Origin: Calothrix sp. PCC 7103
Lineage (GTDB): Bacteria; Cyanobacteriota; Cyanobacteriia; Cyanobacteriales; Nostocaceae
DNA length: 64,000 nt
Direction: 5' to 3'
Assembly (NCBI RefSeq): GCF_000331305.1
Contig: NZ_KB217478.1
Coordinates: 8,153,481 to 8,217,480, forward strand
The notes under the pieces are model-generated. The model made no database searches and was not told the DNA's origin. It saw nothing but the letters and a program-made list of their open reading frames with translations. A program made the translations under genes and the position numbers. Positions 1 to 64,000 of the stretch are shown piece after piece. Positions within the stretch are counted from its first letter, which is position 1, and every line of letters starts with the position of its first letter.

Positions 1-1
1 A

Positions 2-706
2 ACATATGGGCGCCACGACCCAATTCCTTTTTCTTTACCCAGTACTTATTTAGACTCAGTCCGTAAAGCAGGTGGTACTCCAGTATTGTTACCACCAGGA
101 GAAAGTAATGCAGCAACACTATTAAAACCACTTCATGGTTTGATAATTACAGGTGGAGGAGATATTAATCCAGCTTTATATAACGGCGTCGCTCACCCGA
201 TGGTATATTCGGTAGATAATGAGCGTGATGCCTTTGAAATCAACTTAGCAAAGTTCGCATTAGAGAATCACATCCCCGTATTAGGCATCTGTCGAGGGTT
301 ACAAATACTCATCGTTGCTAGTGGTGGTACTTTAATACCGCATATTCCAGATGAGTATGGCATATCAGTTTCACATCGCTTAGAACCAGAACCAGGTATT
401 CGTAAACATACAGAACACAATGTAATAATTACACCCAACAGTCGTTTAGGAAAATTGATACAGAAAACTCATATATCAGTAGTTTCATGGCATCACCAAG
501 CAGTAGGTATACTACCATCGAACTGGCGCCCGGTAGCTCACTCTGCCGAAGATAAAGTAATCGAAGCAGCAGAACACATACATCATCCTTGGGCAGTAGG
601 AGTACAATGGCATCCCGAAATGTCCCAAAATGACCCTAACCACGAACGTATATTTCAAGGATTTATAGAATCAACATATAGTAAACAAAATTTATTATCA
701 GCTTAA
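2..706 (+). CDS. Peptidase C26 / gamma-glutamyl-GABA hydrolase-like amidotransferase (5' end outside window)
   Basis: The reading frame is open to the left edge (frame of base 2), so the true start lies upstream; the TTG at base 86 is only an internal codon. The protein has the class-I glutamine amidotransferase fold as used by PuuD-type hydrolases: a GGGDINP segment, the nucleophile elbow GICRG with its catalytic Cys, and the C-terminal VQWHPE with the catalytic His. These enzymes cleave gamma-glutamyl amides such as gamma-glutamyl-GABA in the cytoplasm; the substrate here cannot be read from sequence. About 30-40 N-terminal residues seem to be missing compared with the usual 240-250 aa. The next gene is convergent. 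Confidence 0.85.
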   Translation, partial: TYGRHDPIPFSLPSTYLDSVRKAGGTPVLLPPGESNAATLLKPLHGLIITGGGDINPALYNGVAHPMVYSVDNERDAFEINLAKFALENHIPVLGICRGLQILIVASGGTLIPHIPDEYGISVSHRLEPEPGIRKHTEHNVIITPNSRLGKLIQKTHISVVSWHHQAVGILPSNWRPVAHSAEDKVIEAAEHIHHPWAVGVQWHPEMSQNDPNHERIFQGFIESTYSKQNLLSA

Positions 707-726
707 TCCCCCCTTGCGATTTTGTA

Positions 727-747
727 GCACAGGCATCTCGCCTGTGC
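727..747. repeat. Short dyad repeat (GCACAGGC ... GCCTGTGC)
   Basis: An 8-bp perfect stem with a 5-base loop in the 50-bp gap between two convergent genes. It belongs to a family of short dyads in this window built around GCCTGT/ACAGGC (others at 1555-1576 and 39201-39222). It may help terminate transcription, but no T-run follows on either strand. Confidence 0.6.
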
Positions 748-756
748 AGCAAAATA

Positions 757-1473
757 TCAATAATTATTTAATAAATCATTTAAGCCAGACCATAGTTTAT
801 CCAGTCCGTTAGCCATAAGAAAGCCGCCTTCAATAGTAGCATCTAATAATTCAGGGTATTGTCTAATAACTAAACTTGTTAATTCTAAAGCTTCACGCGC
901 GTGTCTTGTTTCTATTCCTTCGTTGAAACAGTCATTAAAATAAGCTTCTTCCTTAACCAAAGGGAAACATTTAGATAAACTATCCATAATCGCGCGCATC
1001 CAATCATCTGCAAACATTTCGATTACACACCAAGGTCCTAATGATTTGGGATATAAATTTTGTACTAATAGAATGAATTCTGCTGTAATTGGGTCAAGGA
1101 TGTTTTGTAGTTTATCCAAACTACCAAATTCTTCGTCATCAATTAAAATGTTGGCGCCAATTCGTACAAATGCGCGAGTTAGTTGATAGTGATGGGTGTC
1201 ACCATTTATCAATCCATCATCATCTTTAATGATTTGCAGTTTACGCACCCGCAGCGCTGGACTATCAAGGTGTGGTATGTGATATACCATGACGCGCGTG
1301 GCATGACATGCTGCTTGATATCGTAAGTGTAAATGCCCTAATAAATCTGGGCACGTTAATTTTTCACTGCTTAATGCGCTTAAATTCGCAAAAAAAGGAT
1401 GTTGTGATGGTAAATGCTCTTGATAAAGTTTATTTACATAGTTTTGAAATGTTAGCTCTGCATTTTGGTACAT
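757..1473 (-). CDS. Heme-oxygenase-like di-iron family protein (DUF3865/CADD-like)
   Basis: A 238-aa all-helical protein resembling the DUF3865/CADD group within the heme-oxygenase-like di-iron oxidase/oxygenase superfamily. Candidate metal ligands can be seen: DDDG and GDTHHYQL around residues 84-96 (His94/His95), E152 in IEMFADDW (with D156/D157) and H191 in TRHAREA. Characterised members of this fold oxidise fatty acids, amino acids or para-aminobenzoate precursors, but the substrate of the cyanobacterial group is not known to me. No signal peptide, so cytoplasmic. It stands alone on the minus strand, facing the amidotransferase gene. Family call is good; activity is inferred from the ligand-like residues. 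Confidence 0.7.
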   Translation of the reverse strand: MYQNAELTFQNYVNKLYQEHLPSQHPFFANLSALSSEKLTCPDLLGHLHLRYQAACHATRVMVYHIPHLDSPALRVRKLQIIKDDDGLINGDTHHYQLTRAFVRIGANILIDDEEFGSLDKLQNILDPITAEFILLVQNLYPKSLGPWCVIEMFADDWMRAIMDSLSKCFPLVKEEAYFNDCFNEGIETRHAREALELTSLVIRQYPELLDATIEGGFLMANGLDKLWSGLNDLLNNY

Positions 1474-1554
1474 AAATCTAAAAATAAATATTAATTATAA
1501 TTTTTAGATTTAGCTAAAACTATATAATATTTATTAATTTTGTATAAATAAAAT

Positions 1555-1576
1555 GAACAGGCAAGGATGCCTGTTC
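1555..1576. repeat. Short dyad repeat (GAACAGGCA ... TGCCTGTTC)
   Basis: A 9-bp perfect stem around a 4-base loop, followed by TACAAGA. A nearly identical copy lies at 39201-39222 followed by CACAAGA, and a variant (GAACGGGTA/TACCCGTTC) at 27552-27573. Intergenic dispersed element typical of filamentous cyanobacteria; function unknown. Confidence 0.7.
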
Positions 1577-1606
1577 TACAAGAAAAATTTTTACAAAAGA
1601 AAACTT

Positions 1607-1825
1607 TTAGGGAATGCGAGAAATGTTGCTGCCATCAATTTCTGGTGTTGCGAATGCATCTAATGACCCATTAGGAGGTCTTTTTGGCGCCTTTACACCA
1701 CTCTCTGATGGATAGTCTGGGTCAATTTTTCTCACAACTGGGAGTTGGAGCGCTTGCCATAGCTCGTAAAGTGCCCAAAATAAGCTGGTTGCAGAAGCTG
1801 CGATTAGTAAGTATGCATGTATCAT
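1607..1825 (-). CDS. Small membrane-anchored hypothetical protein
   Basis: A 72-aa frame with an N-terminal hydrophobic helix (about residues 4-28, rich in Ala/Leu/Trp) and a polar, proline-rich tail. I do not recognise a family. It is the divergent partner of the PadR gene: its ATG lies 11 bases from the first of two operator-like inverted repeats, so it may be under the same control. Conservation would be needed to be sure it is expressed. Confidence 0.45.
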   Translation of the reverse strand: MIHAYLLIAASATSLFWALYELWQALQLPVVRKIDPDYPSESGVKAPKRPPNGSLDAFATPEIDGSNISRIP

Positions 1826-1835
1826 ACCATTAAAC

Positions 1836-1884
1836 TATATCTAAAATGGATATATTATATTATGATATATCTAGATTTGATATA
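1836..1884. promoter_or_regulatory. Two identical-architecture inverted repeats (TATATC-N7-GATATA), candidate PadR operator
   Basis: Two perfect inverted repeats, TATATC-N7-GATATA, at 1836-1854 and 1866-1884, centres 30 bp (about three helical turns) apart. They fill the gap between the divergent small membrane gene and padR. PadR dimers bind short AT-rich inverted repeats in their own promoters, so autoregulation of both divergent genes is a natural reading. The repeats are seen directly; the identity of the binding protein is inferred. Confidence 0.6.
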
Positions 1885-1897
1885 GAGTGTTCTAATT

Positions 1898-2236
1898 ATG
1901 AAACCTATTGATTTTTTACCGTTAAAACCCGCAGTGTTTCATATACTGCTTTCGCTTGCTGATGCTGACCGTCACGGTTATGGAATTATGCAGGAGGTGC
2001 AAGTTAGGACGGGTGGTTTAGTTAAGCTTGGCCCTGGAACGCTTTATACAGCTATTAAGCGTTTGGTTATGGATAAGTTAATTGTGGAATGTGAGGGTAC
2101 AGATGCCTGTGATGATGAGCGACGACGGTATTACGGTATTACTGAGTTGGGACGAGAGGTTATTGGGTTAGAGGCTCGGCGGTTGGAGGAATTGGTGGAT
2201 ATGGCAAGGACTAAAAATTTGCTTTCATCGATTTAA
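1898..2236 (+). CDS. PadR family transcriptional regulator
   Basis: A 112-aa winged-helix regulator. The PadR signature is clear: the HGYGIMQEV segment near residue 28, then LGPGTLYTAIKRL (recognition helix region) and the wing DERRRYYGITELG, followed by a short dimerisation helix. PadR proteins repress detoxification or membrane-transport genes until a small ligand binds. It is followed after 24 bases by a small membrane protein gene with a strong ribosome binding site, the usual PadR/permease-prefix pairing. Two operator-like repeats lie just upstream. Ligand unknown. Confidence 0.9.
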   Translation: MKPIDFLPLKPAVFHILLSLADADRHGYGIMQEVQVRTGGLVKLGPGTLYTAIKRLVMDKLIVECEGTDACDDERRRYYGITELGREVIGLEARRLEELVDMARTKNLLSSI

Positions 2237-2260
2237 ATACGCTAATCAAAGGAGGAAGTT

Positions 2261-2596
2261 ATGTTGGTGTCACGATTAGCGTTAAAGTTATCGGTTGGAA
2301 TTTATAGTTGTTTGTTGGTTATTTATCCTGTTGGGTTTCGACGCGAGTTTGGTGAGCAGATGGTTATGGTGTTTGAGGATATGTGTTGCGATGCTGTGCG
2401 TGTTGGGAGAGTTTGGGGTTTGGTGAGGGTTTGGTATTTGGTTTTGTCTGAGTTGTGGAGTACTGCGCGGGAGCAGCATTTACTTGCGGGGAGTTATTTT
2501 CGTTTGTTGAGGGTTAGGAATTGTGTTTTGCAGGCTGTTTTTAGTTTGATGGGGTTGGTTGGGGGAGTTTGGTGGGTGATGAGGGGGAAGCACTGA
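2261..2596 (+). CDS. PadR-linked small membrane protein (permease-prefix-like)
   Basis: A 111-aa protein with a strong AAAGGAGG ribosome binding site 5-6 bases before the ATG. It contains the LVIYPVGFRREFGEQMVMVF segment, which resembles the 'LYP..FR..FG.EM...F.D' motif at the start of PadR-associated permeases, and ends with a hydrophobic helix (about residues 88-106). It appears to be the prefix/anchor region only, without a permease body. The coding strand is strikingly rich in G and T, unlike neighbouring genes, which also explains the C/A-rich open frames opposite. Likely co-transcribed with padR; role unknown. Confidence 0.6.
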   Translation: MLVSRLALKLSVGIYSCLLVIYPVGFRREFGEQMVMVFEDMCCDAVRVGRVWGLVRVWYLVLSELWSTAREQHLLAGSYFRLLRVRNCVLQAVFSLMGLVGGVWWVMRGKH

Positions 2597-2725
2597 AGTG
2601 CTTATTAGCAGCTGGGGGCAGTGGTTGTGTTTCATATGGAAGGGAAATGTTATATTTTGCTCTTGTAGTAAAAGTGCCATGTTGTGGTAATCTATTCAGG
2701 ATTTGATGGAGATGTGGAGGTTGTC

Positions 2726-3790
2726 ATGGCGAAGCTGCGAGTGGGGCTTTTGTTTGGTGGTCGTTCGGGCGAGCATGAAGTATCAATAAAATCTGCACGC
2801 GCGATACAAGGCGCCTTAAGTGCTGATGAAAATGCTAGTAAATATGATGTGCTGCCTTTTTATATTCAAAAAGATGGTTTATGGCAAGCTCCTGCAACTG
2901 CACAACAAGTTTTAGATAGTGGTGAAGCTCTACAAAATCTTGTCCCTTCTCCAAATTTATGGCAATTCCCTACTGAAGCCAATCAAGTTGATGTTTGGTT
3001 TCCTATCCTTCACGGACCTAATGGTGAAGATGGTACTATTCAAGGATTACTTACGTTGATGCAAGTGCCCTATGTTGGTTCTGGTGTACTGGGATCAGCG
3101 GCAGGTATGGACAAAATCGCCATGAAGGATGTTTTTGCACAAGCTGGTTTGGCTCAAGTTAAGTATGTTGTGGTGACACGCACACAAGTTTATTCTAATC
3201 CTTGTGTTTTTCCAAAGCTTTGTGATGATATTGAAGCTAATTTGGGATACCCTTGCTTTGTTAAACCTGCAAATTTGGGGTCTTCTGTTGGTATTGCCAA
3301 AGTTCGTAACCGTACTGAACTAGAAGTTGCTCTTGATAATGCTGCTAGTTATGACCGTCGAATTATTGTTGAACAAGGTGTAATTGCTAGAGAAGTTGAA
3401 TGCGCTGTTTTGGGGAATGATAATCCTAAAGCTTCTGTTCTCGGTGAAATTACTTTCAGTAGCGACTTTTATGACTACGTTACCAAGTATACCGATGGTT
3501 TGGCAGAATTGCTGATTCCGGCGCCGTTACCTTCTTCTGTTGTCTCGCAAATACAAGAGATGGCAATACGAGCATTTGCCGCAGTCGATGCAGCAGGGTT
3601 GTCGCGCGTAGATTTCTTTTATGTTGAATCAACAGGAGAAATACTGATTAATGAAATTAATACGCTACCCGGCTTTACAGCGACAAGTATGTACCCTCAG
3701 ATGTGGGCACATACAGGAGTACCTTTTACTAACCTCGTTGACCAATTAATACAGTTCGCACTCGAACGACATTCTTCTGCAAAGTCCTGA
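2726..3790 (+). CDS. ddl: D-alanine--D-alanine ligase
   Basis: ATP-grasp ligase that joins two D-alanines for peptidoglycan precursors in the cytoplasm. The N-terminus [17 protein letters not shown] is diagnostic, with [12 protein letters not shown], the [16 protein letters not shown] loop, ATP-grasp residues around [13 protein letters not shown], and the C-terminal [16 protein letters not shown] metal/substrate motif. I chose the ATG at 2726 because GGAGG lies 5 bases upstream and the protein then begins [12 protein letters not shown]; an in-frame GTG at 2684 adds 14 unlikely residues. Length 354 aa fits the family. Confidence 0.95.
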
Positions 3791-3981
3791 TAATCGTTTG
3801 ATTTCATCAGTAGATTAAGCACATAAAGTCTAAATAAATACCAAAAATTAGCCAAAAAAGTGGTTTTTTGTAGCCGATGTATCAGAAAAATGCTACAAAG
3901 AGCCACATTTGGCTACGGATACTCAAGGTGTATTCCAGATGTACAATTAGCCGGATAGAGGGGTATAAATCCGCAAAAATC

Positions 3982-4662
3982 ATGGAAAACAGTCAGAGAG
4001 TACAGCAGGAGACAAGTGACGCTGGCACTCCAGCACCTGAAAACGCGCCTGAACACAAACCTGAAAAAACGGTTGTATCAAAGCACAAATCAGCGTTAGG
4101 GTTTTTTATACGCTTGATTGCTTATCATCCTTGGCTTTTGGTGGTAGCTTTACTTAGTCTATTTGCTGGTGGTGCCGTGCTATCAGTTTATAGTCTGGGA
4201 TATGCAGGACGTATAGAAGAGTCGCAGACGAATGATATGACTGAGCAAGCTGAAGTGGAAATAGTTGAGTCTAGTTCTAGCCCAATTACTGAAAAAAGCA
4301 GTCAATTTCCAATATGGGTGGTTATGGCGATTGCTTTGAGTTGTGGAGGTGGGTGTTTGGTTATTTTTCGCTGGCTTAACAGTTCTAAGCTTTCTTCAAA
4401 AAACCAAAAGCGTGTTAATCGCTACGAAGAACGTATCGCTCAACGTCGTTATTATCAAACAGAACCACAGGCGCCTAAAAAGCCACCGGTTTTTGTACCA
4501 CCAAAAACAAGTACACATGGTCCTCCGACAACACGCAAGACAAATACAACAGTTACTATCTTGCCACCTCATAACAATTCTTTGGGCATCCACCAGGAAC
4601 CTCTAGCTCAACCCGTCGAAGCCCGCAAACAAAACCCTATTTCTTTTGTTGTGCGTAAGTAG
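3982..4662 (+). CDS. Hypothetical protein with two membrane segments and a proline-rich tail
   Basis: From the ATG at 3982 the product is 226 aa; the frame is open upstream but those residues look like translated spacer. It has a charged, Pro/Glu-rich N-terminus, a first hydrophobic helix (about residues 38-70), a Ser/Glu-rich loop, a second helix (about 109-130) and a basic, proline/threonine-rich C-terminal tail. No family recognised. The gene stands alone downstream of ddl and no clear Shine-Dalgarno was seen. Confidence 0.55.
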   Translation: MENSQRVQQETSDAGTPAPENAPEHKPEKTVVSKHKSALGFFIRLIAYHPWLLVVALLSLFAGGAVLSVYSLGYAGRIEESQTNDMTEQAEVEIVESSSSPITEKSSQFPIWVVMAIALSCGGGCLVIFRWLNSSKLSSKNQKRVNRYEERIAQRRYYQTEPQAPKKPPVFVPPKTSTHGPPTTRKTNTTVTILPPHNNSLGIHQEPLAQPVEARKQNPISFVVRK

Positions 4663-4928
4663 CAGTCCAAGTAAAAGTGTCAGATGACATCTTTATTTAG
4701 AGAAACCAGCCTTCTATATGAGAAATTATATTTTCTCGCAAAATATTTGGCAAGAAGCCTGGTTTCTGGCTAGATGCTCAATAGAAAAATAACTGTAGTA
4801 ACTGTTTAACCGGGCTTTTGAGTAAACCCGGTTTTTGAATGTCTGAAAGTAAATATACAATTTTATATTTATTTTATAAGATAAATCCTCAAAACTAAAT
4901 TATCAAGAAACTTGCCAGATTGGCAACT

Positions 4929-4980
4929 CACCCCTGAATTCGTCGGTTATCTTGAACAAAGATAAACGACTTCAAGGGTG
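4929..4980. repeat. Long imperfect hairpin inside a 774-bp gene-free stretch
   Basis: CACCCCTGAA and TTCAAGGGTG form the base of a stem, with CGTC/GAC and GTTATCTT/AAGATAA(A)C closer to the loop. Imperfect outer arms (GCCAGATTGGCAAC near 4914 and GCTAATCTGGCAAC near 5026) extend the dyad over about 125 bp. It could be a small MITE-like element or a structured RNA. No coding frame is supported here. Confidence 0.45.
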
Positions 4981-5180
4981 TTGTTATCAGGGTGTACTCA
5001 ACTACCAAACACCATTGCCAGAGCTAATCTGGCAACTATTTAATCAGATTATATTGATGATATAAAAAGCATCTACTACCTGATAACAAGTACCTTTACT
5101 TAAGTAATATTATCTAATATCAAAATATCTACTTATCCAAATATTTAAGTTTGGTATTCATCGCATCAGAGATAAAAGTA

Positions 5181-5310
5181 AAAACGTTGTTGTCCACACA
5201 TTAGCCCCCTAAGAGACAACGTTTTACTAAATTTCTGTTCGCTTCAGCGGTGAATGCTGGAGCGGGAGTGAAAAGCGCTTGATATGCTTCCTCCCGCTCC
5301 TCTTTTTTTT
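5181..5310 (+). ncRNA. Candidate small RNA: two hairpins ending in a strong terminator
   Basis: Within the 4663-5436 gap, a hairpin (AAAACGTTGTTGTC ... GACAACGTTTT, 5181-5225) is followed about 30 bases later by a GC-rich hairpin and T-run (5259-5310). The nearest plus-strand gene ends about 600 bases upstream, so this terminator probably ends a separate transcript. Neither tmRNA, Yfr1 nor Yfr2 signatures were seen. The 5' end is not defined by the sequence; existence as an RNA is inferred. Confidence 0.4.
5259..5310 (+). terminator. Rho-independent terminator
   Basis: Perfect 10-bp stem GGAGCGGGAG / CTCCCGCTCC (5259-5268 and 5291-5300) followed directly by TC and eight T residues. It is the strongest terminator in the window and lies in a region without a recognised gene on the plus strand. 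Confidence 0.8.
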
Positions 5311-5323
5311 GACAAACCTACTT

Positions 5324-5338
5324 AGAAACCCGGTTTCT
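5324..5338. repeat. Dispersed dyad AGAAACCCGGTTTCT
   Basis: Near-perfect palindrome, one of a family: also at 6667-6681, 33485-33499, 33551-33565, 63775-63789 and a partial copy at 63829-63840. Degraded relatives occur near 4735 and 6008. All copies are intergenic. Confidence 0.75.
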
Positions 5339-5436
5339 GTATCAAAGTAATAAAAAAGCTAATCAAATTTATTTTATCAGCCACACAAAGAAATATAAAT
5401 CAATTTAGAATAGTTATTAAAGAGAAGGAGTTATAT

Positions 5437-5871
5437 ATGTCAACGGAAAAAAAATATAAAGAATTTGACGAAATTGTTGACCGTGTTCTTTCAATTATAG
5501 AAAGTAAAAATGAGAGCGAGCAAACCGTACAGAATTTGACTCGTTTAGAAGAAGCTCATTTTGCTACATCACAACTTATCACTAGCTTACAGGCAGAACA
5601 CTTAGCAGCATCTAACCGGATGACTCGGATTGAAGAAGTACATATAGCTGCATCACAGAGAATGGACAAGATAGAATCTGCAATCGAATCAAATGCTGCT
5701 TCTATTAAAGAACTAAATATAGCAGTTGCTAATATATTTAACATTGTTAGTATCAGTCAGCAGAATTTTGAAGTGATTCAGAAAAATTTTGAAGTCGTTG
5801 TTTCCCAAATTAAAGGACTTCAGTCAGAAAGTCGTAATATTCTTGACCATTTGTTTGGTATACAAGAATAA
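5437..5871 (+). CDS. Small coiled-coil protein (paralogue 1 of 2)
   Basis: A 144-aa, almost wholly helical protein with AAGGAG 8 bases before the ATG. The middle carries about three imperfect repeats of roughly 18 residues (RLEEAHFATSQL, LQAEHLAASNRM, RIEEVHIAASQRM), then a longer coiled coil with QNFEVIQKNFEVVVSQI. No membrane segment, no known domain. It is clearly homologous along its length to the gene at 6145-6549, so the pair arose by tandem duplication. The duplicated pair and the neighbouring spacers contain no GGCGCC between about 4.5 and 6.7 kb. Function unknown; oligomeric scaffold is one possibility. Confidence 0.7.
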   Translation: MSTEKKYKEFDEIVDRVLSIIESKNESEQTVQNLTRLEEAHFATSQLITSLQAEHLAASNRMTRIEEVHIAASQRMDKIESAIESNAASIKELNIAVANIFNIVSISQQNFEVIQKNFEVVVSQIKGLQSESRNILDHLFGIQE

Positions 5872-5958
5872 TTATGTTCAAGGAGCCAATTCAGCTTCTA
5901 TGCCTTTAAATGTATAAAAAAGACATAATTTTTATTTTCTGTTTTATTTTAAAGCATA

Positions 5959-5992
5959 AAATTCCCAACTTCTGAAGAAAAGTTGGGAATTT
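5959..5992 (+). terminator. Probable terminator hairpin
   Basis: AAATTCCCAACTT / AAGTTGGGAATTT forms a 13-bp stem with an 8-base loop, 87 bases after the first coiled-coil gene; only a weak T-stretch (CAGTCTTTATT) follows. Confidence 0.55.
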
Positions 5993-6144
5993 CAGTCTTT
6001 ATTATAAACCAGGTTTTTACGTAAAAATATGGCTTATTAATTACATCAATTAATTGAAAAATAAAATTAAGTTATTATAAACAGAGTAGTATTTAGATAC
6101 AAATCACCCAACTTAAACTAAGTGGAATAAACTAATATAAGATT

Positions 6145-6549
6145 ATGATTAATACAAAGATATTTATGTTTAATAGAAGACAGAAAGAATTGGATGAAGT
6201 ATTTGAACGTGTTCTTGCATTCATGGAAGATGCTTGTGACCAATCATCCAAGCGTATGGAAAAGTTAGAACATTTAAATATTGCAGCGTCGGAACGTATC
6301 GCTCGTTTGGAAGAAGCAAGTTTGGCATCTTCAAAAAGACTAGATAGAATTGAAACGATTTTAGAGTCGAATACAATTTCTATTAAAGAATTAAATAGTG
6401 CTGCCTCCAATATATTTACTGCTATGACTCTCAGTCAGAAAAATTTTGAGGTTATTCAGGAGAACTTTGAGATTATAGTTTCACAAGTTAAAGGAATTCA
6501 AAAGGAAAATCGCCATATGCTTGAATATTTATTCAAGACAAACGAGTAA
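6145..6549 (+). CDS. Small coiled-coil protein (paralogue 2 of 2)
   Basis: A 134-aa helical protein matching the previous coiled-coil gene: KELDEVFERVLAF, RLEEASLASSKRLDRIE, SIKELNSAASNIF and QKNFEVIQENFEIIVSQVKGI correspond block by block. It has one heptad-type repeat unit fewer than its partner. The start at 6145 is uncertain; an in-frame ATG at 6166 would give MFNRRQ, and no good ribosome binding site is visible before either. Separate promoters are likely, since a hairpin terminator lies between the two genes. Confidence 0.65.
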   Translation: MINTKIFMFNRRQKELDEVFERVLAFMEDACDQSSKRMEKLEHLNIAASERIARLEEASLASSKRLDRIETILESNTISIKELNSAASNIFTAMTLSQKNFEVIQENFEIIVSQVKGIQKENRHMLEYLFKTNE

Positions 6550-6614
6550 ATGTTTTTAATTGAATAAAGTTTTTATATTCTAAATTGTTAATTTTGGTGT
6601 GTAAAAAATTAAAA

Positions 6615-6649
6615 ACGGATATAACAATTAATTTTTTTGTTACATCCGT
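6615..6649 (+). terminator. Probable terminator hairpin
   Basis: ACGGATATAACA / TGTTACATCCGT stem (one G-T pair) just after the second coiled-coil gene; T-rich loop and AT-rich tail. Confidence 0.5.
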
Positions 6650-6666
6650 CTATAATTTAAAATGCT

Positions 6667-6681
6667 AGAAACCCGGTTTCT
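6667..6681. repeat. Dispersed dyad AGAAACCCGGTTTCT
   Basis: Identical to the copy at 5324-5338; the two copies bracket the duplicated coiled-coil genes. It lies 8 bases beyond the stop codon of the convergent hydrolase gene. Confidence 0.75.
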
Positions 6682-6688
6682 TTGCGCT

Positions 6689-7624: not shown

Positions 7625-7764
7625 TTTAGGTTTTAGATTTGTCTTCGACAGTGAATAAAGTATAAATTTTAGATTGAGTGATTTTAATCCAAAAATCTAA
7701 ATTTTTGGCATCTTAGAAAAAAAAGTTTATTTTTCAACACAACTTAAACCTATAAGTGATTTAT

Positions 7765-8271: not shown

Positions 8272-8431
8272 GGTTTAATATTCCTTAATTAGGCAGTTAG
8301 TAACATACCAGCATTTTGCTTGAATATTCTATGACTATGACACCTTTTTTTACAACAACTTAGTTATTTGTATCTATCTTTACTATTTATCTTAACAAAA
8401 TGTACTTTATCTTTTTTTAGATTAAAAATAT

Positions 8432-56355: not shown

Positions 56356-56443
56356 AACTGATAAATATTGGGCAATTGGCAAATTTTTATATGTTGGGGG
56401 GGCATTCCTGCCCTCTCCACAAGACACTCCACGTTCCTTAAGA

Positions 56444-56860
56444 TTAATCAAATAGATCTAGGGGTAAGTGACCATACATTTCATTAATTCCACTTTGGGT
56501 GTGGGACTGGCACGACACTAAAACGCCACGATGATGTCCTGAATATGAATCAAGGTAGCACAAACCATTTTTGCCGTTTAATTTGATATAAACAGGTCCC
56601 TCAATAATAGGCAAATTGCTAGGTGGCTCATAGCCGAATGCCAAGGAGTAACCTTTCATCGCCGCCAAACCTTCTTCGGCTGTATCGGCACAAATACCTA
56701 AGATTTGGTAATCTGAAAGTCTAGCAAAAGCTAGTATTGCTTTACGGACTAAAGCTTTTTCAGAACTCTTAACTATCGGAGCAATATCGACGCAATTGAA
56801 TTTGTTTAGGATTTTTTTTGCGTCTTGAAGTGTGAGATTGGTTTGGTTTTGACTTGTCAT
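56444..56860 (-). CDS. DUF1824 family protein
   Basis: 138 aa, soluble. Family residues include LTLQDAKKILNKFNCV, SDYQILGICADTAEEGLAAM and YLDSYSGHHRGVLVSCQS. Restricted mostly to cyanobacteria and plant plastids; structure known for members but no activity. 88 bases separate it from the ABC-F gene downstream. Confidence 0.88.
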   Translation of the reverse strand: MTSQNQTNLTLQDAKKILNKFNCVDIAPIVKSSEKALVRKAILAFARLSDYQILGICADTAEEGLAAMKGYSLAFGYEPPSNLPIIEGPVYIKLNGKNGLCYLDSYSGHHRGVLVSCQSHTQSGINEMYGHLPLDLFD

Positions 56861-56932
56861 ATACCTGCTTGTTGCTAGTTGTGTGCTGTGTTGGTGAGAT
56901 AGCGCGCGTTGGTCTTCGTGTTTTATTTCACT

Positions 56933-57778
56933 TTAAGGTGATTGGATATTACCTACGTTAAATAGAAATGGCACACTGCTAGTCTTATCGTTCCCCATAA
57001 CAAGAACTTTTGGCATTTGGGCGCCACCAGTCTTCCATGCTTCAATTGCCTCCTTTTGTAACACTAACTGTCCTCCCTGAGCTTTTAATGTTTCAGCTAA
57101 AAGTCTTTGAGCTTCGGCTTTACCTTTGGCACGATTAATTTCTGCTTGAGCTTCTTGTTCTGCTTCTCTAGCTATATACACCGCTCGTTGTGCCCGCTGT
57201 TCGGCAATTTGCTTCTCTTCTACAGCTCTTGCGAATTCAGGAGAGAATGTTAAGTCTACGACGCTGGTGTCTAAGACAATTATTCCATATTTATCTAATC
57301 GTTGGCTTAATGCTAAATCAAAGTCATCCTTAAGTTCAGTTCGCCGGGTGATAGCTTCTTCGACTGTTCTGCGTGCTGCTGCTATTTTAAATGATTCCTG
57401 AGTCTGTGGTGCAATAATCTTTGCTACTATGTTTTCTAGAGTACCCTGCGTCCTACGTATCTGTACTACTTCTGAGGAATCTATTTGAAAATTAATCGCA
57501 AATCTTGCGGACAGCGTTTGCAAATCCTTCGTTGAACTTTCGGCAGGCACTTCAAATTTTTGCACCGTCAAATCATATACATCTACCACTGAAATAAAAG
57601 GTGGTTTAACGTGAATTCCCTCCAGTAATGCTCCATCTGTCGCTTTACCTAATATACTAATCACCCCTGCTTGCCCAGGATTTATTATGATAAAGGAATT
57701 TAAACTCAATAGTACAATTATGCCTAATGCTATACCTAGTGCAGCGCTTTGCCAACTGGTAGATTGCGTATTTTTCAA
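56933..57778 (-). CDS. Prohibitin family (SPFH) protein
   Basis: 281 aa. One N-terminal membrane helix (about 14-34), then the prohibitin/Band 7 domain (INPGQAGVISILGKATDGAL, DVYDLTVQKFEVPAESSTKD) and a coiled coil (REAEQEAQAEINRAKGKAEA). Forms ring-like scaffolds at the plasma or thylakoid membrane and may modulate FtsH proteases. The truncated gene at 31795-31986 is a relative. Confidence 0.9.
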   Translation of the reverse strand: MKNTQSTSWQSAALGIALGIIVLLSLNSFIIINPGQAGVISILGKATDGALLEGIHVKPPFISVVDVYDLTVQKFEVPAESSTKDLQTLSARFAINFQIDSSEVVQIRRTQGTLENIVAKIIAPQTQESFKIAAARRTVEEAITRRTELKDDFDLALSQRLDKYGIIVLDTSVVDLTFSPEFARAVEEKQIAEQRAQRAVYIAREAEQEAQAEINRAKGKAEAQRLLAETLKAQGGQLVLQKEAIEAWKTGGAQMPKVLVMGNDKTSSVPFLFNVGNIQSP

Positions 57779-57868
57779 TTCTCCTCCTTTTATTTCCGTT
57801 ATCTATAATCGTTTGCGTTCTATTAAGGCAAACGTAGTAAAATATAATTCACACTTCAAAAAATAGCT

Positions 57869-58395
57869 GTGGTTACGCTATCAAAAGATTTTAGGGCATC
57901 TAGTACTAGTACTGGTTCAGTACATCCACTCCAGCGCTTGTCAAGTTACGGTATTCATTATCGCAAACAAATCTGGTAAGCAGCCATTTGTTCGGTTTTA
58001 AACAAAGTTTTCGATTTGGCGCCACCTGTACTAATTGGTACGGCAGTTGATGTGGTGGTCAAAAAGCAAGATTCAGTCATCGCGCGTCTGGGAATTACCG
58101 ATATATTCGGACAGTTCCTTATTCTAGCGTTTTTTACGGTGATTGTCTGGGTATTAGAATCGGTGTTTAAGTACGGATACAAACGACTGTGGCGAAATTT
58201 ATCACAACAAATTCAGCATAATTTAAGTCTTGACGCTTACAACCATCTGCAAGAATTAGAACTAGCCTACTTTGAAGAACGTAGTACTGGTGGATTAATG
58301 TCTATTTTGAGTGACGACGTTAACCTCACGAGCAGCTACTAGAGAAACAAGGAGTATACGCAAAGCTATGGCGTGTCCAAAGTGGTTTAAAATAA
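57869..58395 (+). pseudogene. Decayed ABC exporter gene (nonsense codon plus large internal deletion)
   Basis: From GTG 57869 the frame reads ... RLSSYGIHYRKQIW, then a TAA at 57977 where Leu is expected, then in the same frame [20 protein letters not shown] and on to [20 protein letters not shown] near 58320, the first part of an ABC exporter membrane domain. After that, in another frame from about 58327, [20 protein letters not shown] and stop is the C-terminal end of the same family. The remaining membrane domain and the whole ATPase (over 1 kb) are missing. Clearly non-functional. Confidence 0.85.
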
Positions 58396-58449
58396 TGGGC
58401 GGCGCCAATCTTTAAAAGTTACCTTGCCAAAATAGTTAGGAGCTAAATT

Positions 58450-58875
58450 ATGTTTACTACGTCATCTCAACCTTCATCTCCAGAAAACGAATGGCGCCAT
58501 CGGTTAGACAAATTCGTCAAAGACCATAAAATGGAGTTGGCAGCTTTATCATGGGCACTATGGTTGGAAAACGGTAACACTCAGGGAACCATAGGTATAG
58601 ATTTACAGCCAACACCACACTTTGTATACTGTCCACCGACAGCAGTCGAAAGCTTAAACGATAGAGTAGAGAATCGTCTTCAGGAAATTTTAGGACTTAT
58701 TAAGCACCATAAACCCGAAGTAGAAGTTCTAATGATAGGTATTGGGAAAGACCAAGTTAAACTTATTTACTTTGAACCAGAAACGGCACCACCTCAAAGT
58801 TTTGAGCAACTAGGCAAAGATGTTGATACACTCATAGAAGAGTTAGAAACAAAACTTGGCGCCTGTTTATCTTAA
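58450..58875 (+). CDS. ccmS: Probable beta-carboxysome assembly chaperone CcmS-like protein
   Basis: 141 aa, soluble, acidic. Conserved stretches WRHRLDKFVKDHKMELAALS, QGTIGIDLQPTPHFVYCPP, RLQEILGLIKHHKPEVEVLM and FEQLGKDVDTLIEELE fit what I recall of CcmS, a chaperone for the carboxysome shell proteins CcmK1/K2. No other ccm gene is in the window, which is consistent with satellite ccm genes in cyanobacteria. GGAG lies 8 bases before the ATG. Family recall should be confirmed by profile search. Confidence 0.6.
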   Translation: MFTTSSQPSSPENEWRHRLDKFVKDHKMELAALSWALWLENGNTQGTIGIDLQPTPHFVYCPPTAVESLNDRVENRLQEILGLIKHHKPEVEVLMIGIGKDQVKLIYFEPETAPPQSFEQLGKDVDTLIEELETKLGACLS

Positions 58876-58892
58876 TGTTACGTGTAACGTCT

Positions 58893-60281
58893 CTACCTTC
58901 CACATAACCAGTCTTTAATTTCCTGCGCTATCCATAAGCATTCTTGGGCACTTAGTCCAATACCGAATGAGAATCGTTTATTTACGGTTTGAATAGTAAT
59001 CATTTCCTTTTCTTGATGACTTTCAAGCTGAAGGTTATCTTCTTTGCCTAAACGGATAATACTTTGAAATACGTCTCTAATATCTCTAATTTTGCCACTT
59101 TTTATACTGCGGCGAAACGTAAATATCCATAGTTCTATCCGAAAATCATCTTCATTAAAACATATTCTGTGATTACCAAAGTCTGAAATTATACACTGGT
59201 CTATAGCTGCTAGCCAAATTAAAAGTAGGGGAACAGTTATTCCAAGTGTCGGTAAAATGCCTGTTACTAGTCCTATTCCTGACAGGGAAAAAAAGGCTAG
59301 CCCAAATCCTGATATGATTAAGTACTTAACTATTAAAGCAATGACTCTAATGTTATCTATTTCTTTTCTGGGAAGAACTATGTTTAATTTATTAAAAGTT
59401 TTTTTGATTCTGACTAAACTATAATTAGGTTTGCGAAATGGTTGAAAAATATTGCTTGCAGGTTTATTACTCAAACTATTAGATTCAAGTGCTTTTAATG
59501 CTTCAGTGGCATTACTCAAGCGTCTTTCTACTGATGGTTCTAAAACTTTTTCAATCCAAGCTAAAAAATTATCATTTATATTAACTTTATCGTGAAATTG
59601 TATTTTTAAATCACGAACAGGCAAATCAGCAGGAGGAATACCTGTTAATAAGTGAATAATAGTTGCACCAAGTCCGTATAAGTCAGAAGCAGGTACAGCT
59701 TTACCTCCAAACTGTTCCATTGGTGCATAACCATATGTTCCCACAACAGTAAAAGTAACACCTTCTTTCGCTGCTTTATCTTGAACGGCGCCAAAATCAA
59801 CTAAATAAATCTCTTTATCTTCTCCTAAAATTAAATTACTCGGCTTAATATCGCGATGTAGAACAGCCGGATTTAAATTATGTAAATATATTAAGATATT
59901 TAAGACTTCGGTGACAATTTTATGTACTTCTTTCTCGGTAAATCTTTTACCTTGCACTAACAAGTCTTTCAAAGAATTACCAGGAATATACTCTTCCACT
60001 AGTCCAAACCACAGCACCCGGTCATCAATGGAAAAATAATCTATATACTTGGGAATTTTTGCATGTTCAAGATGCTTAAGAATTTGAGCTTCACGTTCAA
60101 ATAATTTCAAATCATCCCATTGTACTGTACCACCAAAAGCAAGCAACTTCACGACTACACGTGAATCTTTGCCTTCCGAGACACTCAAATCTGTTGCCAA
60201 CCAAGTTTGACGCGCTGCATTATTACCAAGTTGACGCTCAAGTTTATAACGATTTTGGATTATTTGTTCAGCTTGGAGCAT
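58893..60281 (-). CDS. Ser/Thr protein kinase with C-terminal membrane anchor
   Basis: 462 aa. Hanks-type kinase in residues 1-270: VVVKLLAFG (Lys45), VLHRDIKPSNLIL, VDFGAVQDKAAKEGVT, GTYGYAPMEQFGGKAVPASD. The glycine loop QLGNNAARQTW lacks the standard GxGxxG. Residues 315-365 contain two membrane helices, followed by a C-terminal domain of about 95 residues that is probably cytoplasmic. Four bases after the stop of the paralogous kinase upstream, so co-transcribed. Confidence 0.88.
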   Translation of the reverse strand: MLQAEQIIQNRYKLERQLGNNAARQTWLATDLSVSEGKDSRVVVKLLAFGGTVQWDDLKLFEREAQILKHLEHAKIPKYIDYFSIDDRVLWFGLVEEYIPGNSLKDLLVQGKRFTEKEVHKIVTEVLNILIYLHNLNPAVLHRDIKPSNLILGEDKEIYLVDFGAVQDKAAKEGVTFTVVGTYGYAPMEQFGGKAVPASDLYGLGATIIHLLTGIPPADLPVRDLKIQFHDKVNINDNFLAWIEKVLEPSVERRLSNATEALKALESNSLSNKPASNIFQPFRKPNYSLVRIKKTFNKLNIVLPRKEIDNIRVIALIVKYLIISGFGLAFFSLSGIGLVTGILPTLGITVPLLLIWLAAIDQCIISDFGNHRICFNEDDFRIELWIFTFRRSIKSGKIRDIRDVFQSIIRLGKEDNLQLESHQEKEMITIQTVNKRFSFGIGLSAQECLWIAQEIKDWLCGR

Positions 60282-60285
60282 TTTT

Positions 60286-61470
60286 TTAGAAAAGAGTCGT
60301 AATTATAAATATAGCAAGCCACCAAATTACTAAACTGATAGGTACTCCAACGAAAAGTCCTGCAATTGCCCAACCGCGCTGATGACGTTTAAAATGGTCA
60401 ATACTGCGCCAACGTCTACTTTTCCATGCCCATTCATTACCTTTGGCGCCAAGAACAACAGTCATAATAATTCCGACTGATGGCACAAAATATAATAAAC
60501 CGACCCAGACTTGATTCGTCCATAACCAAAAATAAGGCATAAAAAAGGCACCCCAATTCCATCCTAAAACTTCTTCAGGAACAGGCGCCATACTATTAAT
60601 TCCACAGCCAGAGTTATTAATATCTGGTACTTGTTGTATATGTGGTGGTTTTACTACTTTTAATCTTGTACCCGATTTTAATGCTTCTAGTGCGAGTACA
60701 GCAGTTGCAAAACGGTCTTCAGGTGCAGGTTCAGTTAATTTTTGTAACCATTCGCTAAACTCAGGAGTTACATTAACCAAATGACTAAATTCAATTCGTA
60801 GCGAACGTTGAGGTAACTCCGAAGGTGAAAGACCAGTCAACAAATGAATTAAGGTTGCACCCAATGCATATAAATCGGATGCAGGAACAGCTTTACCACC
60901 AAATTGTTCCATTGGTGCATAACCGTATGTTCCAACAACAGTAAAAGTAACACCTTCTTTGGCGGCTTTATCTTGAACGGCGCCGAAATCGACTAAATAT
61001 ACACGATTATCTTCACCCAATATCAAATTACTTGGTTTAACATCGCGATGCAGCACCAAGGGATTTAACTCGTGTAGATAAATTAAAATATTTAAAACAT
61101 CAACAGCTATCTTACGTACTTGTTTTTCACTAAACCGTTGACAAGTAGCAAGTTTTTCCTTAAAAGACTCCCCAGGTATATACTGTTCAATCAAACCGAA
61201 CCATAAACTGCGGTCGTCAACACAGAAATAGTCTATATATTGAGGAATTCTAGGATGCTTTAGTTGCTTGAGTATTTGCGCTTCACGTTCAAACAACTTT
61301 AAATCATCCCATTGTATGGCGCCTCCAAACGCTAATAATTTGACTACAACTCGTGAGTCAGCATCAGCAGCTTGTAAATCTTTGGCCAACCAAGTTTGAC
61401 GGATACCGTTATTACCCAGTAAGCGTTGTAACTGGTAACGGTCTTGTAATACCTGTTCTGCTTGCAGCAT
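60286..61470 (-). CDS. Ser/Thr protein kinase with C-terminal membrane helices (tandem paralogue)
   Basis: 394 aa from ATG 61470 (MLQAEQVLQDRYQLQRLLGN), chosen because the paralogue begins the same way; a TTG at 61488 is possible. Kinase motifs match its neighbour (VVVKLLAFGG, VLHRDVKPSNLIL, VDFGAVQDKAAKEG), also with a degenerate glycine loop (GNNGIRQTW). After a linker comes a membrane region unlike the neighbour's (FMPYFWLWTNQVWVGLLYFV, GWAIAGLFVGVPISLVIWWL). The N-terminal ~280 residues are highly similar between the two genes, the C-termini are not. Confidence 0.88.
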   Translation of the reverse strand: MLQAEQVLQDRYQLQRLLGNNGIRQTWLAKDLQAADADSRVVVKLLAFGGAIQWDDLKLFEREAQILKQLKHPRIPQYIDYFCVDDRSLWFGLIEQYIPGESFKEKLATCQRFSEKQVRKIAVDVLNILIYLHELNPLVLHRDVKPSNLILGEDNRVYLVDFGAVQDKAAKEGVTFTVVGTYGYAPMEQFGGKAVPASDLYALGATLIHLLTGLSPSELPQRSLRIEFSHLVNVTPEFSEWLQKLTEPAPEDRFATAVLALEALKSGTRLKVVKPPHIQQVPDINNSGCGINSMAPVPEEVLGWNWGAFFMPYFWLWTNQVWVGLLYFVPSVGIIMTVVLGAKGNEWAWKSRRWRSIDHFKRHQRGWAIAGLFVGVPISLVIWWLAIFIITTLF

Positions 61471-61599
61471 CTTTAAGGTCGCGAGCAACTGCTGGAATTG
61501 GAGCGTATCAGTACTACTATGTTAACTACAATATTAAAAAATGTCATAAACTAACATTAAATTATTCCGATTCCCAGCGTGTCATATTTTACTCGTTAA

Positions 61600-62592
61600 T
61601 TATTTCAGTTTTTTCTTAACTTTACTTAATATTTGCTGTATTTTTAGCTGAGTCAAGCGGAAACTACTAAAATCTGCGATATTGCCAGGGTATTGTTGTT
61701 TATGGTCAAAGAATTCGTTTAACTCACTGAGAATGACTAGTAGGCGCCTGGTAATATTATCTAATCGGTATTCAGCTAAGAAATCTTGAGATAAATTAAA
61801 GGGTTGGGAAGTTGCGGCAACCTTTAATATACGTTCCATGTCATACTCTTTAGAATATCCGGCAATTTTATAGCAATTAAATCCTGGGTCTAAAAAATCA
61901 GAGAGTCCATTATTTAAACTAGAAAAAACATGACATCCACAAGCCATTGCTTCGAGTGGTTGTAAGCCAAAACCTTCGGTAACACCTTGGAGTGTCCAAT
62001 ATTCTGCCGAGTCGTATAAATATACTTTTGCTCGATTAAACAAACTTGTCAAATCCTTCACAAAAGATTCAACTATATACACATTACATTTTTCTTGTAA
62101 AGCTGGTATTAAATCTTTTATTAAGTAACTTGAAGATTTACGCGCTTGTACTAGTACATCAATATCGCGCGTTATATCTAAATTTGTAAATTCATCGCTA
62201 ATTTGATTTGGCAAGTAGTAAATTAGAGAGTTAGGCGCCAACTGTCCCCAATATCCCATTGTATTACGGCTAACCGTGATAATTGGAATACTCGCCGGAA
62301 GCTTAAATCCGTAACCCGCACTATGAGCATGATATATAACATTATGAGACTTTAAAGAAGGCGCCAGTTTAGGAACATCGAATCCCCAACTAACAACAAA
62401 AATAACATCTTCAAGACTAGATGCTTTAAGAACATCATCCAAAAAAAGCTTATCAGGTTCGCGTTGACGATAAGTAACAACCTCAGCATCACAAATTGTT
62501 TGGGCAATACTAAGCGTCTTCAACTCCGCGAACAGACCACCACAAGTAAATTTAGCATCTGTACCAGGCAATAAAAAGTAAAGTTTTCTCAT
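61600..62592 (-). CDS. Glycosyltransferase (GT4-like)
   Basis: 330 aa from ATG 62592 (MRKLYFLLPGTDAKFTCGG); a GTG at 62613 overlapping the upstream stop as GTGA is an alternative and would add 7 residues. C-terminal GT-B signature EGFGLQPLEAMACGCHVFSS. N-terminal Rossmann half includes DAEVVTYRQREPD. Probably transfers a sugar to a lipid or polysaccharide. Third gene of a tight minus-strand run with DUF6391 and DUF2809. Confidence 0.8.
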   Translation of the reverse strand: MRKLYFLLPGTDAKFTCGGLFAELKTLSIAQTICDAEVVTYRQREPDKLFLDDVLKASSLEDVIFVVSWGFDVPKLAPSLKSHNVIYHAHSAGYGFKLPASIPIITVSRNTMGYWGQLAPNSLIYYLPNQISDEFTNLDITRDIDVLVQARKSSSYLIKDLIPALQEKCNVYIVESFVKDLTSLFNRAKVYLYDSAEYWTLQGVTEGFGLQPLEAMACGCHVFSSLNNGLSDFLDPGFNCYKIAGYSKEYDMERILKVAATSQPFNLSQDFLAEYRLDNITRRLLVILSELNEFFDHKQQYPGNIADFSSFRLTQLKIQQILSKVKKKLK

Positions 62593-62609
62593 ATTTTGTA
62601 TGGGCAGGT

Positions 62610-63017
62610 TCACTTACGGATTTTAACCAACCAGCGCATCCAAAACCACCCAGCAAAGCTACCAAAAAAGTAAGATATAAAATCAGACAAAACAAAAGTA
62701 TTACCTAAAACAAGCCTCCCCACCAACGTCGCACGTACTGCTTCAAGAAAAGGATGTTTCACTAGCTGTAAAAACTCTATTCCACACGTAGCAACACAAA
62801 CTCCAACCGCAGTCCATAACGGAGAAGCTTTCGGATAAACAAAACCAACTAATAAAATCCAAAATATCTCATAAGCAACGCTCCCTAAAAAATCATACAG
62901 CCACTCTAGTCCAAATCCTTGTGCAAAGCGCACAAAATAACCTAGTGGCACAATAAATATAATGCTAATAAGTAGCGCTACACGGTACCGAAAAAAATTT
63001 CTTTCTAACTTTGCCAT
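62610..63017 (-). CDS. DUF2809 family membrane protein
   Basis: 135 aa, four membrane helices; motifs GFGLEWLYDFLGSVAYEIFW, ATCGIEFLQLVKHPFLEAVR and LVLGNTFVLSDFISYFFGSF fit DUF2809. Overlaps the DUF6391 gene by 13 bases and the glycosyltransferase start by up to 4, so translation of all three is coupled. Function unknown. Confidence 0.85.
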   Translation of the reverse strand: MAKLERNFFRYRVALLISIIFIVPLGYFVRFAQGFGLEWLYDFLGSVAYEIFWILLVGFVYPKASPLWTAVGVCVATCGIEFLQLVKHPFLEAVRATLVGRLVLGNTFVLSDFISYFFGSFAGWFWMRWLVKIRK

Positions 63018-63667
63018 TGAACTTTTACGAAATGCGCTTCACGTCCCCACATATCCCTAGTTTTAATAATACTCTCGATACTGAGATTAAAAGGTACAGA
63101 CGTTGTTAAGTAACGCTGTGCTAAAGCGCCAACATAAGGCGCTAACTCACCAGCAAGAGTGGTAGCTATTCCCAACCCAAACATCTGTTCGATTAATCCG
63201 CGCGGCATAATTAAATGCATTCCTACTGCACATCCCGCAGTCAGTAACATTGATGTCGATACATTAGTACCACAGCGTGGATGAACAGCTAAATTCCACT
63301 CACCGTCTTTCAAACGTTGAAGACCGTTGGTAACAGCGCGACGTAAATCACTGATATTAACATCACCGTAGAGAAAAAAGCCTTGTTCGGTAGATAATCC
63401 TCCAAGTGATTCGTCATCTACCTGAAAATTACGAGGTAGCAGCGAAATAAACCGGGAAGCACGGGGTTGACTCAAAAGCCACACAGTCGCGTGTTCAAGT
63501 GCATGAACTTGACGCAGCATTAAAATTTCTTTTAAGCCAGGTACAAAATGCAGTACTGCAAGCAACTCCTTATCTTGGTTAGGCTGAGGAGTAATAAAAT
63601 CCAACAAATCAAGATTTACAAAATCAAGGGGATTGGAGTTACCCTGTACAGAAACAGAGGTATTCAT
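63005..63667 (-). CDS. DUF6391 family protein
   Basis: 220 aa. Conserved core RQVHALEHATVWLLSQ, then GLSTEQGFFLYGDV, AVHPRCGTNVSTSMLL and a hydrophobic region (about 140-185) likely membrane-embedded. HALEHA and HPRCG could bind metal, but no activity is known. First gene of the three-gene run. Confidence 0.85.
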   Translation of the reverse strand: MNTSVSVQGNSNPLDFVNLDLLDFITPQPNQDKELLAVLHFVPGLKEILMLRQVHALEHATVWLLSQPRASRFISLLPRNFQVDDESLGGLSTEQGFFLYGDVNISDLRRAVTNGLQRLKDGEWNLAVHPRCGTNVSTSMLLTAGCAVGMHLIMPRGLIEQMFGLGIATTLAGELAPYVGALAQRYLTTSVPFNLSIESIIKTRDMWGREAHFVKVQWQS

Positions 63668-63774
63668 TAAAACACCGCCCTCTTAGAATTAATGGAGTAT
63701 TGAAGATATTTTTAATTTAACTCTTGTATCAATCAAACAACTACAAATTTTTATTGAGTTTTGCGTAGAAACAA

Positions 63775-63840
63775 AGAAACCGGGTTTCTGTTGATAACTT
63801 GTAATAAAAACGACAATTTTGCGCGAGATTCCCGGTTTCT
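63775..63840. repeat. Two GAAACC/GGTTTC dyads
   Basis: AGAAACCGGGTTTCT at 63775-63789 and a partial ATTCCCGGTTTCT at about 63828-63840, same family as 5324, 6667 and 33485. They lie upstream of the DUF6391 gene. Confidence 0.7.
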
Positions 63841-63850
63841 AAGATTTGGG

Positions 63851-63884
63851 AAAAAATTAGACCGAAGCTTTTAAACTCCGGTCT
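63851..63884 (-). terminator. Terminator for a minus-strand gene entering from the right
   Basis: On the minus strand AGACCGGAG / CTTCGGTCT (one G-T pair) followed by AATTTTTT. It lies 30 bases after a minus-strand stop codon at 63914. Confidence 0.6.
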
Positions 63885-63913
63885 GTATTATGAATGCGCT
63901 TGCGCGCGTATGT

Positions 63914-64000
63914 TTAGCAGGTTTGAAGTTGTCTTTGTTTTTTACGGAGATAGCGTGATAATGCAACACCTGTTCGCCAAAAGCTACGTATAACCAAGAA
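63914..64000 (-). CDS. C-terminal end of an unidentified protein (cut by window edge)
   Basis: A minus-strand frame of 28 codons open to the right edge ends FWRTGVALSRYLRKKQRQLQ then TC and stop. The basic tail and the terminator just downstream suggest a real gene end. Too short to name. Confidence 0.35.
   Translation of the reverse strand, partial: FLVIRSFWRTGVALSRYLRKKQRQLQTC

Follow-up and report, generated by a model that had tools for sequence, protein, structure and literature searches.

HIP1, the highly iterated palindrome (HIP) GCGATCGC of cyanobacteria, is a GC-rich word that recurs about once per kilobase (kb) in genes and spacers and is tied to solitary methylases. Alternate words have also been described. 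In the available text of Elhai 2015 (PMC4390886), GGCGCC was reported as the alternate HIP of Calothrix PCC 7103, with HIP1 at 14 per megabase (Mb), CAGGCGCC as the top 8-mer at 159 per Mb, two GrCGyC methylases and no recognisable GGCGCC methylase. The data comprised one genome and 19 kb of fragments from a second strain, D253, and exceptional HIPs were said to be sporadic and not to occur in clades; such sporadic, non-persisting words formed part of the argument for a function of HIP1 itself. This report was the sole match of a literature search for GGCGCC with Calothrix, and a search for HIP1 with Calothrix and PCC 7102 gave no match. The present analysis concerns GGCGCC in a stretch of 64,000 bases from Calothrix sp. 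PCC 7103 (contig NZ_KB217478.1; G000:C7:8153481-8217480), hereafter the window, in the whole of that genome (G000) and in its relatives. That GGCGCC is an alternate HIP in PCC 7103 is already known; what is added to the prior report is its persistence throughout a genus, the freezing of single sites, a footprint of deamination and a missing restriction partner.

The preliminary description, made from the window, had counted about 100 copies of GGCGCC where some four were expected and had seen no HIP1. Exact matching gives 101 copies and none of GCGATCGC. At a G+C content of 37.7%, the expected number of GGCGCC is 2.9 from base composition, 4.6 from a first-order and 3.7 from a second-order Markov model (Poisson log10 P of about -95 for 101 against 4.6). 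With simple gene calls, 51, 16 and 24 sites fall in the three coding phases and 10 are intergenic. The sites are the following.

9..62365, no strand given: all 101 GGCGCC sites by exact match, with their starts in the next four lines
GGCGCC starts, first line: 9, 525, 1153, 1686, 2810, 3520, 4470, 6746, 7283, 8042, 8219, 8844, 9565, 9873, 9974, 10369, 10389, 10677, 11746, 13507, 14789, 14923, 15275, 15651, 16352, 16797
GGCGCC starts, second line: 16986, 18165, 18273, 22079, 23554, 25480, 26446, 26701, 27349, 27462, 27759, 28441, 28572, 29246, 30588, 30712, 30909, 32080, 33127, 33205, 33241, 33325, 34026, 34264, 34957, 35692
GGCGCC starts, third line: 36261, 36360, 37576, 37871, 38385, 38727, 38859, 40797, 41138, 42078, 42819, 43143, 43645, 43991, 46019, 46363, 46625, 47064, 47365, 47489, 48323, 48919, 49662, 49759, 50470, 50735
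GGCGCC starts, fourth line: 51564, 51780, 54032, 54374, 54665, 54999, 55219, 55291, 55957, 56158, 57020, 58018, 58401, 58493, 58858, 59787, 60445, 60584, 60979, 61318, 61743, 62234, 62360

The whole genome (11,584,393 bases in 12 contigs) holds 17,704 GGCGCC, a mean interval of about 600 bases, and 163 GCGATCGC, which corresponds to 14.1 HIP1 per Mb. The word was further analysed in four mostly syntenic 400-kb stretches (loci L142-L221), one each from PCC 7103, Dulcicalothrix desertica PCC 7102 (G060), Calothrix sp. PCC 7716 (G065) and NIES-4105 (G062). Under a second-order model with sites masked, the observed-to-expected ratio of GGCGCC in these stretches is 38.7 (PCC 7103), 40.6, 49.1 and 31.9, and CAGGCGCC occurs 60 and 53 times on the two strands of the PCC 7103 stretch (150 and 132 per Mb). 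Expectations were taken from the Markov model because the reversed word, CCGCGG, makes a poor control here: an Eco29kI-type system in this genus may itself deplete it. Genome-wide, the count thus lies far above expectation and HIP1 is scarce, as the preliminary description had anticipated from the window. The four stretches also show a strong avoidance of CCATGG in every case (0-1 copies against 44-50 expected), and GATC, GGCC and ACCGGT stand at 0.10-0.23, 0.20-0.31 and 0.02-0.08 of expectation, respectively.

The family was then represented by 217 genomes, of which seven belong to the genus formed by Dulcicalothrix and Calothrix-named relatives (the four above, HK-06 (G061) and two metagenome assemblies, G063 and G064) and 210 do not. 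All seven genomes of the genus carry 7,475-20,380 copies of GGCGCC (1150-1711 per Mb) and 31-163 copies of HIP1 (3.6-22.6 per Mb). Among the other 210, GGCGCC does not exceed 1053 copies or 110.8 per Mb, and the median for HIP1 is 803 per Mb; HIP1 reaches at least 200 per Mb in 206 of them, and the remaining four are low in both words. HIP1 is depressed wherever the alternate word is high, both words being high in none of the 217. A GC-rich palindrome far above Markov expectation, genome-wide and in genes as well as spacers, is what defines an alternate HIP, and GGCGCC is almost certainly one throughout the PCC 7103 genome, although with no GCGATCGC in the window and so few in the genome it is not HIP1 proper. 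The suggestion of a replacement palindrome made from the window is borne out across the genus. Since the switched state is found in all seven genomes of one genus, the GGCGCC HIP has persisted through a clade, which goes against its description as sporadic in the available text of Elhai 2015 (PMC4390886). The word, the low HIP1 (14 per Mb) and the link to a GRCGYC methylase are the same as in the alternate HIP reported there for PCC 7103 and D253; the present comparison goes further in covering seven genomes of one genus, in finding single sites conserved and in finding the endonuclease of the methylase family in none of the seven. Compared with HIP1, GGCGCC has six bases rather than eight, and it is presumably associated with 5-methylcytosine (m5C) in GRCGYC instead of GATC or CGATCG methylation.

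Some genomes outside the genus deserve separate mention. Two family members, G194 and G182, have 50 and 9 HIP1 per Mb and 30.5 and 4.7 GGCGCC per Mb, respectively (G182 being 88% complete), so that a member of the family can do without either word. In a class-wide sample of 388 genomes, GGCGCC densities similar to those of the genus occur in one family (f16) and in one further genome, G435. The reversed word is also common in f16, as in G555, with 5498 GGCGCC against 3180 reversed. Two other genomes with high counts, G561 and G448, were discarded as further carriers, HIP1 being the top 8-mer in the 24 and 34 kb examined. G435 belongs to the same order but another family and has 9489 GGCGCC against 304-343 in each of three other genomes of its own genus. 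Over 493 kb of it (L262-L268, L282-L301), CGGCGCCG occurs 616 times against 29 expected, CAGCGCCG 579 times against 34 and GCGATCGC 9 times against 11.5, and no C5 methylase was found in those 493 kb. Its word is not in Table 2 of Elhai 2015 (PMC4390886) in the available text, and G435 apparently carries a second, independent alternate HIP.

At the level of single sites, the alignments of PCC 7103 with PCC 7102, PCC 7716 and NIES-4105 comprised 178,995, 230,830 and 83,604 bases, respectively. The GGCGCC sites of PCC 7103 were intact in 271 of 288, 335 of 376 and 98 of 136 cases, compared with 431 of 631, 605 of 844 and 153 of 299 for other hexamers made of G and C only, and in all three comparisons GGCGCC ranked first in conservation among the hexamers with at least 50 cases (1286, 1833 and 225 hexamers). 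Divergence is 0.013-0.037 at five positions of the word and 0.065 at the fourth, and about 0.04-0.08 in the flanks, such that conservation forms a sharp island of 6 bp with the flanks at background. Furthermore, divergence is flat with distance from the nearest site, with few aligned bases (2,000-3,000 per pair) beyond 1 kb. When four-fold degenerate bases within the motif were compared with those of the same codon elsewhere, the ones within it had changed less in all 14 classes, with p<0.05 in 12, each pair being counted in both directions, which makes these p values too strong. In spacers, 156 of 197 sites were intact; for hexamers in which five or six bases are G or C, the figure was 2239 of 3491. 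The reduced change at degenerate bases and the conservation in spacers indicate that the preservation of GGCGCC is not a protein effect.

Changes away from GGCGCC at positions 1, 2, 5 and 6 occur at 0.10 of the generic rate (60 observed, 611.9 expected) and the C-to-T change at position 3 at 0.69; against the more distant NIES-4105 the corresponding values are 0.07 and 0.43. There are 81 sites (not polarised) that two of three genomes have and the other lacks; the genome without the site has GGTGCC or GGCACC in 43 cases, AGCGCC in 10 and GACGCC in 2. Among the nine one-off words, GGTGCC alone exceeds its expectation in every one of the four stretches (1.3-2.07); GTCGCC (0.95-1.27) and GCCGCC (0.74-1.52) give mixed results, and the remaining six always fall below. 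According to the available part of PMC2413257, M.BsaHI methylates the central C of GRCGYC. The GGTGCC excess and the 43 of 81 cases are the pattern that deamination of GGmCGCC would leave, at the same base as the target of M.BsaHI (PMC2413257). With regard to quantity, a loss ratio of 0.10 amounts to a scaled bias of 3.6, which under mutation-selection balance predicts an enrichment of about 37-fold, against an observed 32-49. Selection and biased conversion yield identical enrichment numbers. As the ordered-pair tables of gain and loss are symmetric by construction, direction was taken only from counts resolved with NIES-4105 as the outgroup, which give 11, 0 and 4 losses and 0, 1 and 1 gains on the end branches of PCC 7103, PCC 7102 and PCC 7716. 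PCC 7103 also has the highest GGTGCC excess of the four stretches, 2.07.

A methylase that would cover the word is present throughout the genus. The PCC 7103 genome has 15 matches to the C5 methylase family, and the clustering of 81 open frames from the seven genomes of the genus gave three families (A, B and D) present in all seven, with family B a mere fragment in HK-06. Family A (L005, 319 amino acids) is found in 63 of the 217 genomes, including all seven, and resembles a record annotated hindVM at 54% identity. The best 30 family A loci, 23 outside the genus and seven within it, were inspected with a flank of 1.5 kb: the SPERRFD motif of a BsaHI-type endonuclease lies beside the gene in 18 of the 23, in some of them in broken frames, and in none of the seven. 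This endonuclease corresponds to PF09519 (RE_HindVP), which has matches in 42 of the 217 genomes, and none of the seven genus genomes yielded a BsaHI/HindV-type endonuclease at E <= 1e-10. Family A is thus a C5 methylase homologous to the enzymes paired with R.BsaHI/HindV-type endonucleases, and like BsaHI/HindV restriction-modification systems (GRCGYC) the genus has a methylase of that family; unlike them, it shows no endonuclease, and GGCGCC is enriched rather than depleted. Outside the genus, GGCGCC has a median density per Mb of 0.71 where methylase and endonuclease occur together (n=39) and of 5.07 where both are missing (n=151), a significant depletion (p = 1.4e-6); the median is 6.08 in genomes that have only the methylase (n=17) and 1.40 in those that have only the endonuclease (n=3). 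In a tree of 32 of the 53 family A loci, the 21 without a full open frame being dropped, the genus is represented by seven copies, which group in a single clade (support 100/99); for HK-06 the copy on contig 60 was used, the second being split over two contig ends. In the three genomes inspected in this respect (PCC 7103, PCC 7102 and PCC 7716), the gene is flanked by a RuBisCO-large-like gene on one side and, on the other, by a downstream gene that all three share. The RuBisCO-large-like neighbour is at L142:3180-4373, and its family match was computed on the PCC 7103 copy.

The solitary GRCGYC methylase, whose specificity is predicted from neighbours and homology, is quite probably the partner of GGCGCC. 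The tie to a DNA methyltransferase proposed in the preliminary description is thus supported by comparison (a GRCGYC-type m5C methylase in seven of seven genomes, in one clade, with the endonuclease in none), while the strictly GGCGCC-specific enzyme that it had envisaged was not identified. Two other C5 methylase families were set aside as partners. Family B (L011/L012) has an Eco29kI-type endonuclease as a neighbour, except for one of the seven loci inspected, L067, in the stretch seen; the target of this type is presumably CCGCGG. Family D (L010) has Cfr10I/Bse634I-type neighbours in three relatives, which point to RCCGGY. Family C (L004, broken in PCC 7103; L031, intact) was rejected as the CGATCG enzyme DmtC, since only 43 of the 217 genomes have it at E <= 1e-60 whereas HIP1 is nearly universal; a loss of DmtC is reported in the available text of Elhai 2015 (PMC4390886).

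The explanation favoured here, with a probability of roughly 0.6 for the whole, combines a replacement of HIP1 by GGCGCC, a methylase partner and weak selection site by site. The switch from HIP1 to GGCGCC would have taken place a single time, in the genus ancestor; the solitary GRCGYC methylase would methylate the inner cytosine, giving GGmCGCC, and the methylated word would now do what HIP1 does in other cyanobacteria. Each site would be held by weak selection, of a scaled strength of about 2.9 to 3.6, against a steady loss that may proceed chiefly through deamination of the methylated C to GGTGCC, and the word could be recognised by a system for repair, recombination or the handling of the chromosome. 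With regard to the parts, the evidence is about evenly divided on whether site-wise selection, rather than a repair bias, maintains the word. More tentatively, and with somewhat less than even odds, the genus would have switched its word after the restriction partner of the GRCGYC methylase had been lost and the methylase stood alone throughout the genus, the word being read site by site by a system stricter than the methylase, so that the letters of the HIP would be changeable and its function kept.

Several observations weigh against this explanation. When normalised to other palindromes (0.57), the bias falls to 2.85 and the predicted enrichment to about 17, below that observed. GACGCC is suppressed like the other changes (0.05) although a GRCGYC methylase should still modify it, which suggests that whatever reads the site is more selective than the presumed methylase. 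Nor is the methylase sufficient, given that the 17 genomes outside the genus with the methylase alone have at most 42.6 GGCGCC per Mb (p = 0.55 against those with neither gene). Moreover, the inheritance of family A is not strictly vertical: the copies of PCC 7103 and PCC 7102 share 99% identity and pair as sisters in the tree, whereas the 400-kb DNA places PCC 7102 nearer PCC 7716 (0.9448 versus 0.9362), and in NIES-4105 the gene is at another place. PF01555 methylases, also present in all seven genus genomes, remain candidate partners. Additionally, PCC 7103 may not be at balance, as it lacks 50 sites common to PCC 7102 and PCC 7716 and has 8 of its own. The corresponding counts made without the outgroup (absent only/present only) are 8/11 for PCC 7102 and 23/18 for PCC 7716, and of the three lineages only that of PCC 7103 departs clearly from balance. 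Some of its 50 absent sites may instead have been gained by the common ancestor of PCC 7102 and PCC 7716.

Among the alternatives, the one that fares best, although it seems unlikely, is that GGCGCC is a neutral by-product of methyl-directed mismatch repair, the G-mC ratchet of Elhai (PMC4390886, in the available text), in which repair favours new strands that create GmC and near-misses of GRCGYC are ratcheted into GGCGCC with no selection for the word. It links the word to an m5C methylase (PMC4390886), the base that needs methylation agrees with the C-to-T hot position and with M.BsaHI, and the mean spacing in the four stretches (572-715 bases) is near the 1 per 1000 or so of the model. Repair over about 1 kb should, however, shield the neighbours of a site too, and both the sharp 6-bp island and the flat divergence, within the few bases aligned beyond 1 kb, argue against a plain ratchet and favour a process that acts on the word itself, either selection or conversion. 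The 15 losses and 2 gains on the outgroup-resolved end branches do not suggest ongoing accumulation either; the counts of PCC 7102 and PCC 7716 made without the outgroup, given above, are balanced.

Haemophilus and Neisseria have uptake sequences, and GGCGCC could likewise be a signal for DNA uptake or exchange spread by biased recombination. Sites in genes and spacers and a biased fixation at every position are what such a molecular drive would give. This alternative is nevertheless improbable, considering that six of the nine one-off classes are below expectation in the four stretches, that the switch accompanies a methylase and that the word is a short, strict palindrome. Another process that acts on m5C sites, and shifts word counts in E. 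coli, is very-short-patch repair of T:G mismatches (Vsr type), but as a source of the excess, by conversion of GGTGCC to GGCGCC, it is very hard to credit: it would deplete GGTGCC, of which there is in fact an excess in each of the four stretches, and would leave positions 1 and 2 free to change. Finally, an artefact of composition or coding (Gly-Ala codons, GC-rich stretches), to which the most used phase 1 (Gly-Ala; 290 of 543 coding sites in 400 kb) might have pointed, can practically be discounted in view of the roughly 38-fold excess over a second-order model, the 78 intergenic sites in 400 kb and the freezing at four-fold degenerate sites.

The preliminary description had further proposed that two gaps in the window mark newer or constrained DNA.

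18273..22079, no strand given: the longest GGCGCC-free stretch, 3806 bases, over three SpoIIE-type phosphatase genes; chance-sized, P = 0.18
4470..6746, no strand given: the second GGCGCC-free stretch named there, 2276 bases from site to site, less than in the longest gap

The window does not support that proposal, as spacing is near random and the longest gap, which covers SpoIIE-type phosphatase genes, is unremarkable for 101 random sites. Spacing is also close to random in the four 400-kb stretches (coefficient of variation 0.97-1.04), but gaps below 100 bases are too few, and the longest gap exceeds chance in PCC 7102 and NIES-4105 (P 0.02 and 0.00), not in PCC 7103 and PCC 7716. Sites at most 124 bases from another site are slightly less conserved (0.827 versus 0.870-0.887). 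As for other features, the three SpoIIE-type phosphatase genes lie in a row at 18117-23305 of the window, one of them with a PilJ-type domain, and short dispersed repeats at 33485-33566, 35207-35311 and 44248-44347 are about 80-93% identical to many places, with at least five of the seven genus genomes among the matches listed.

An alternate word that is common to seven genomes, with its sites near fixed, argues that function follows the methylated word and not the letters of HIP1. The presence of HIP1 and GGCGCC genomes within one family, together with candidate methylases, makes the question of what HIP1 does testable by comparison.

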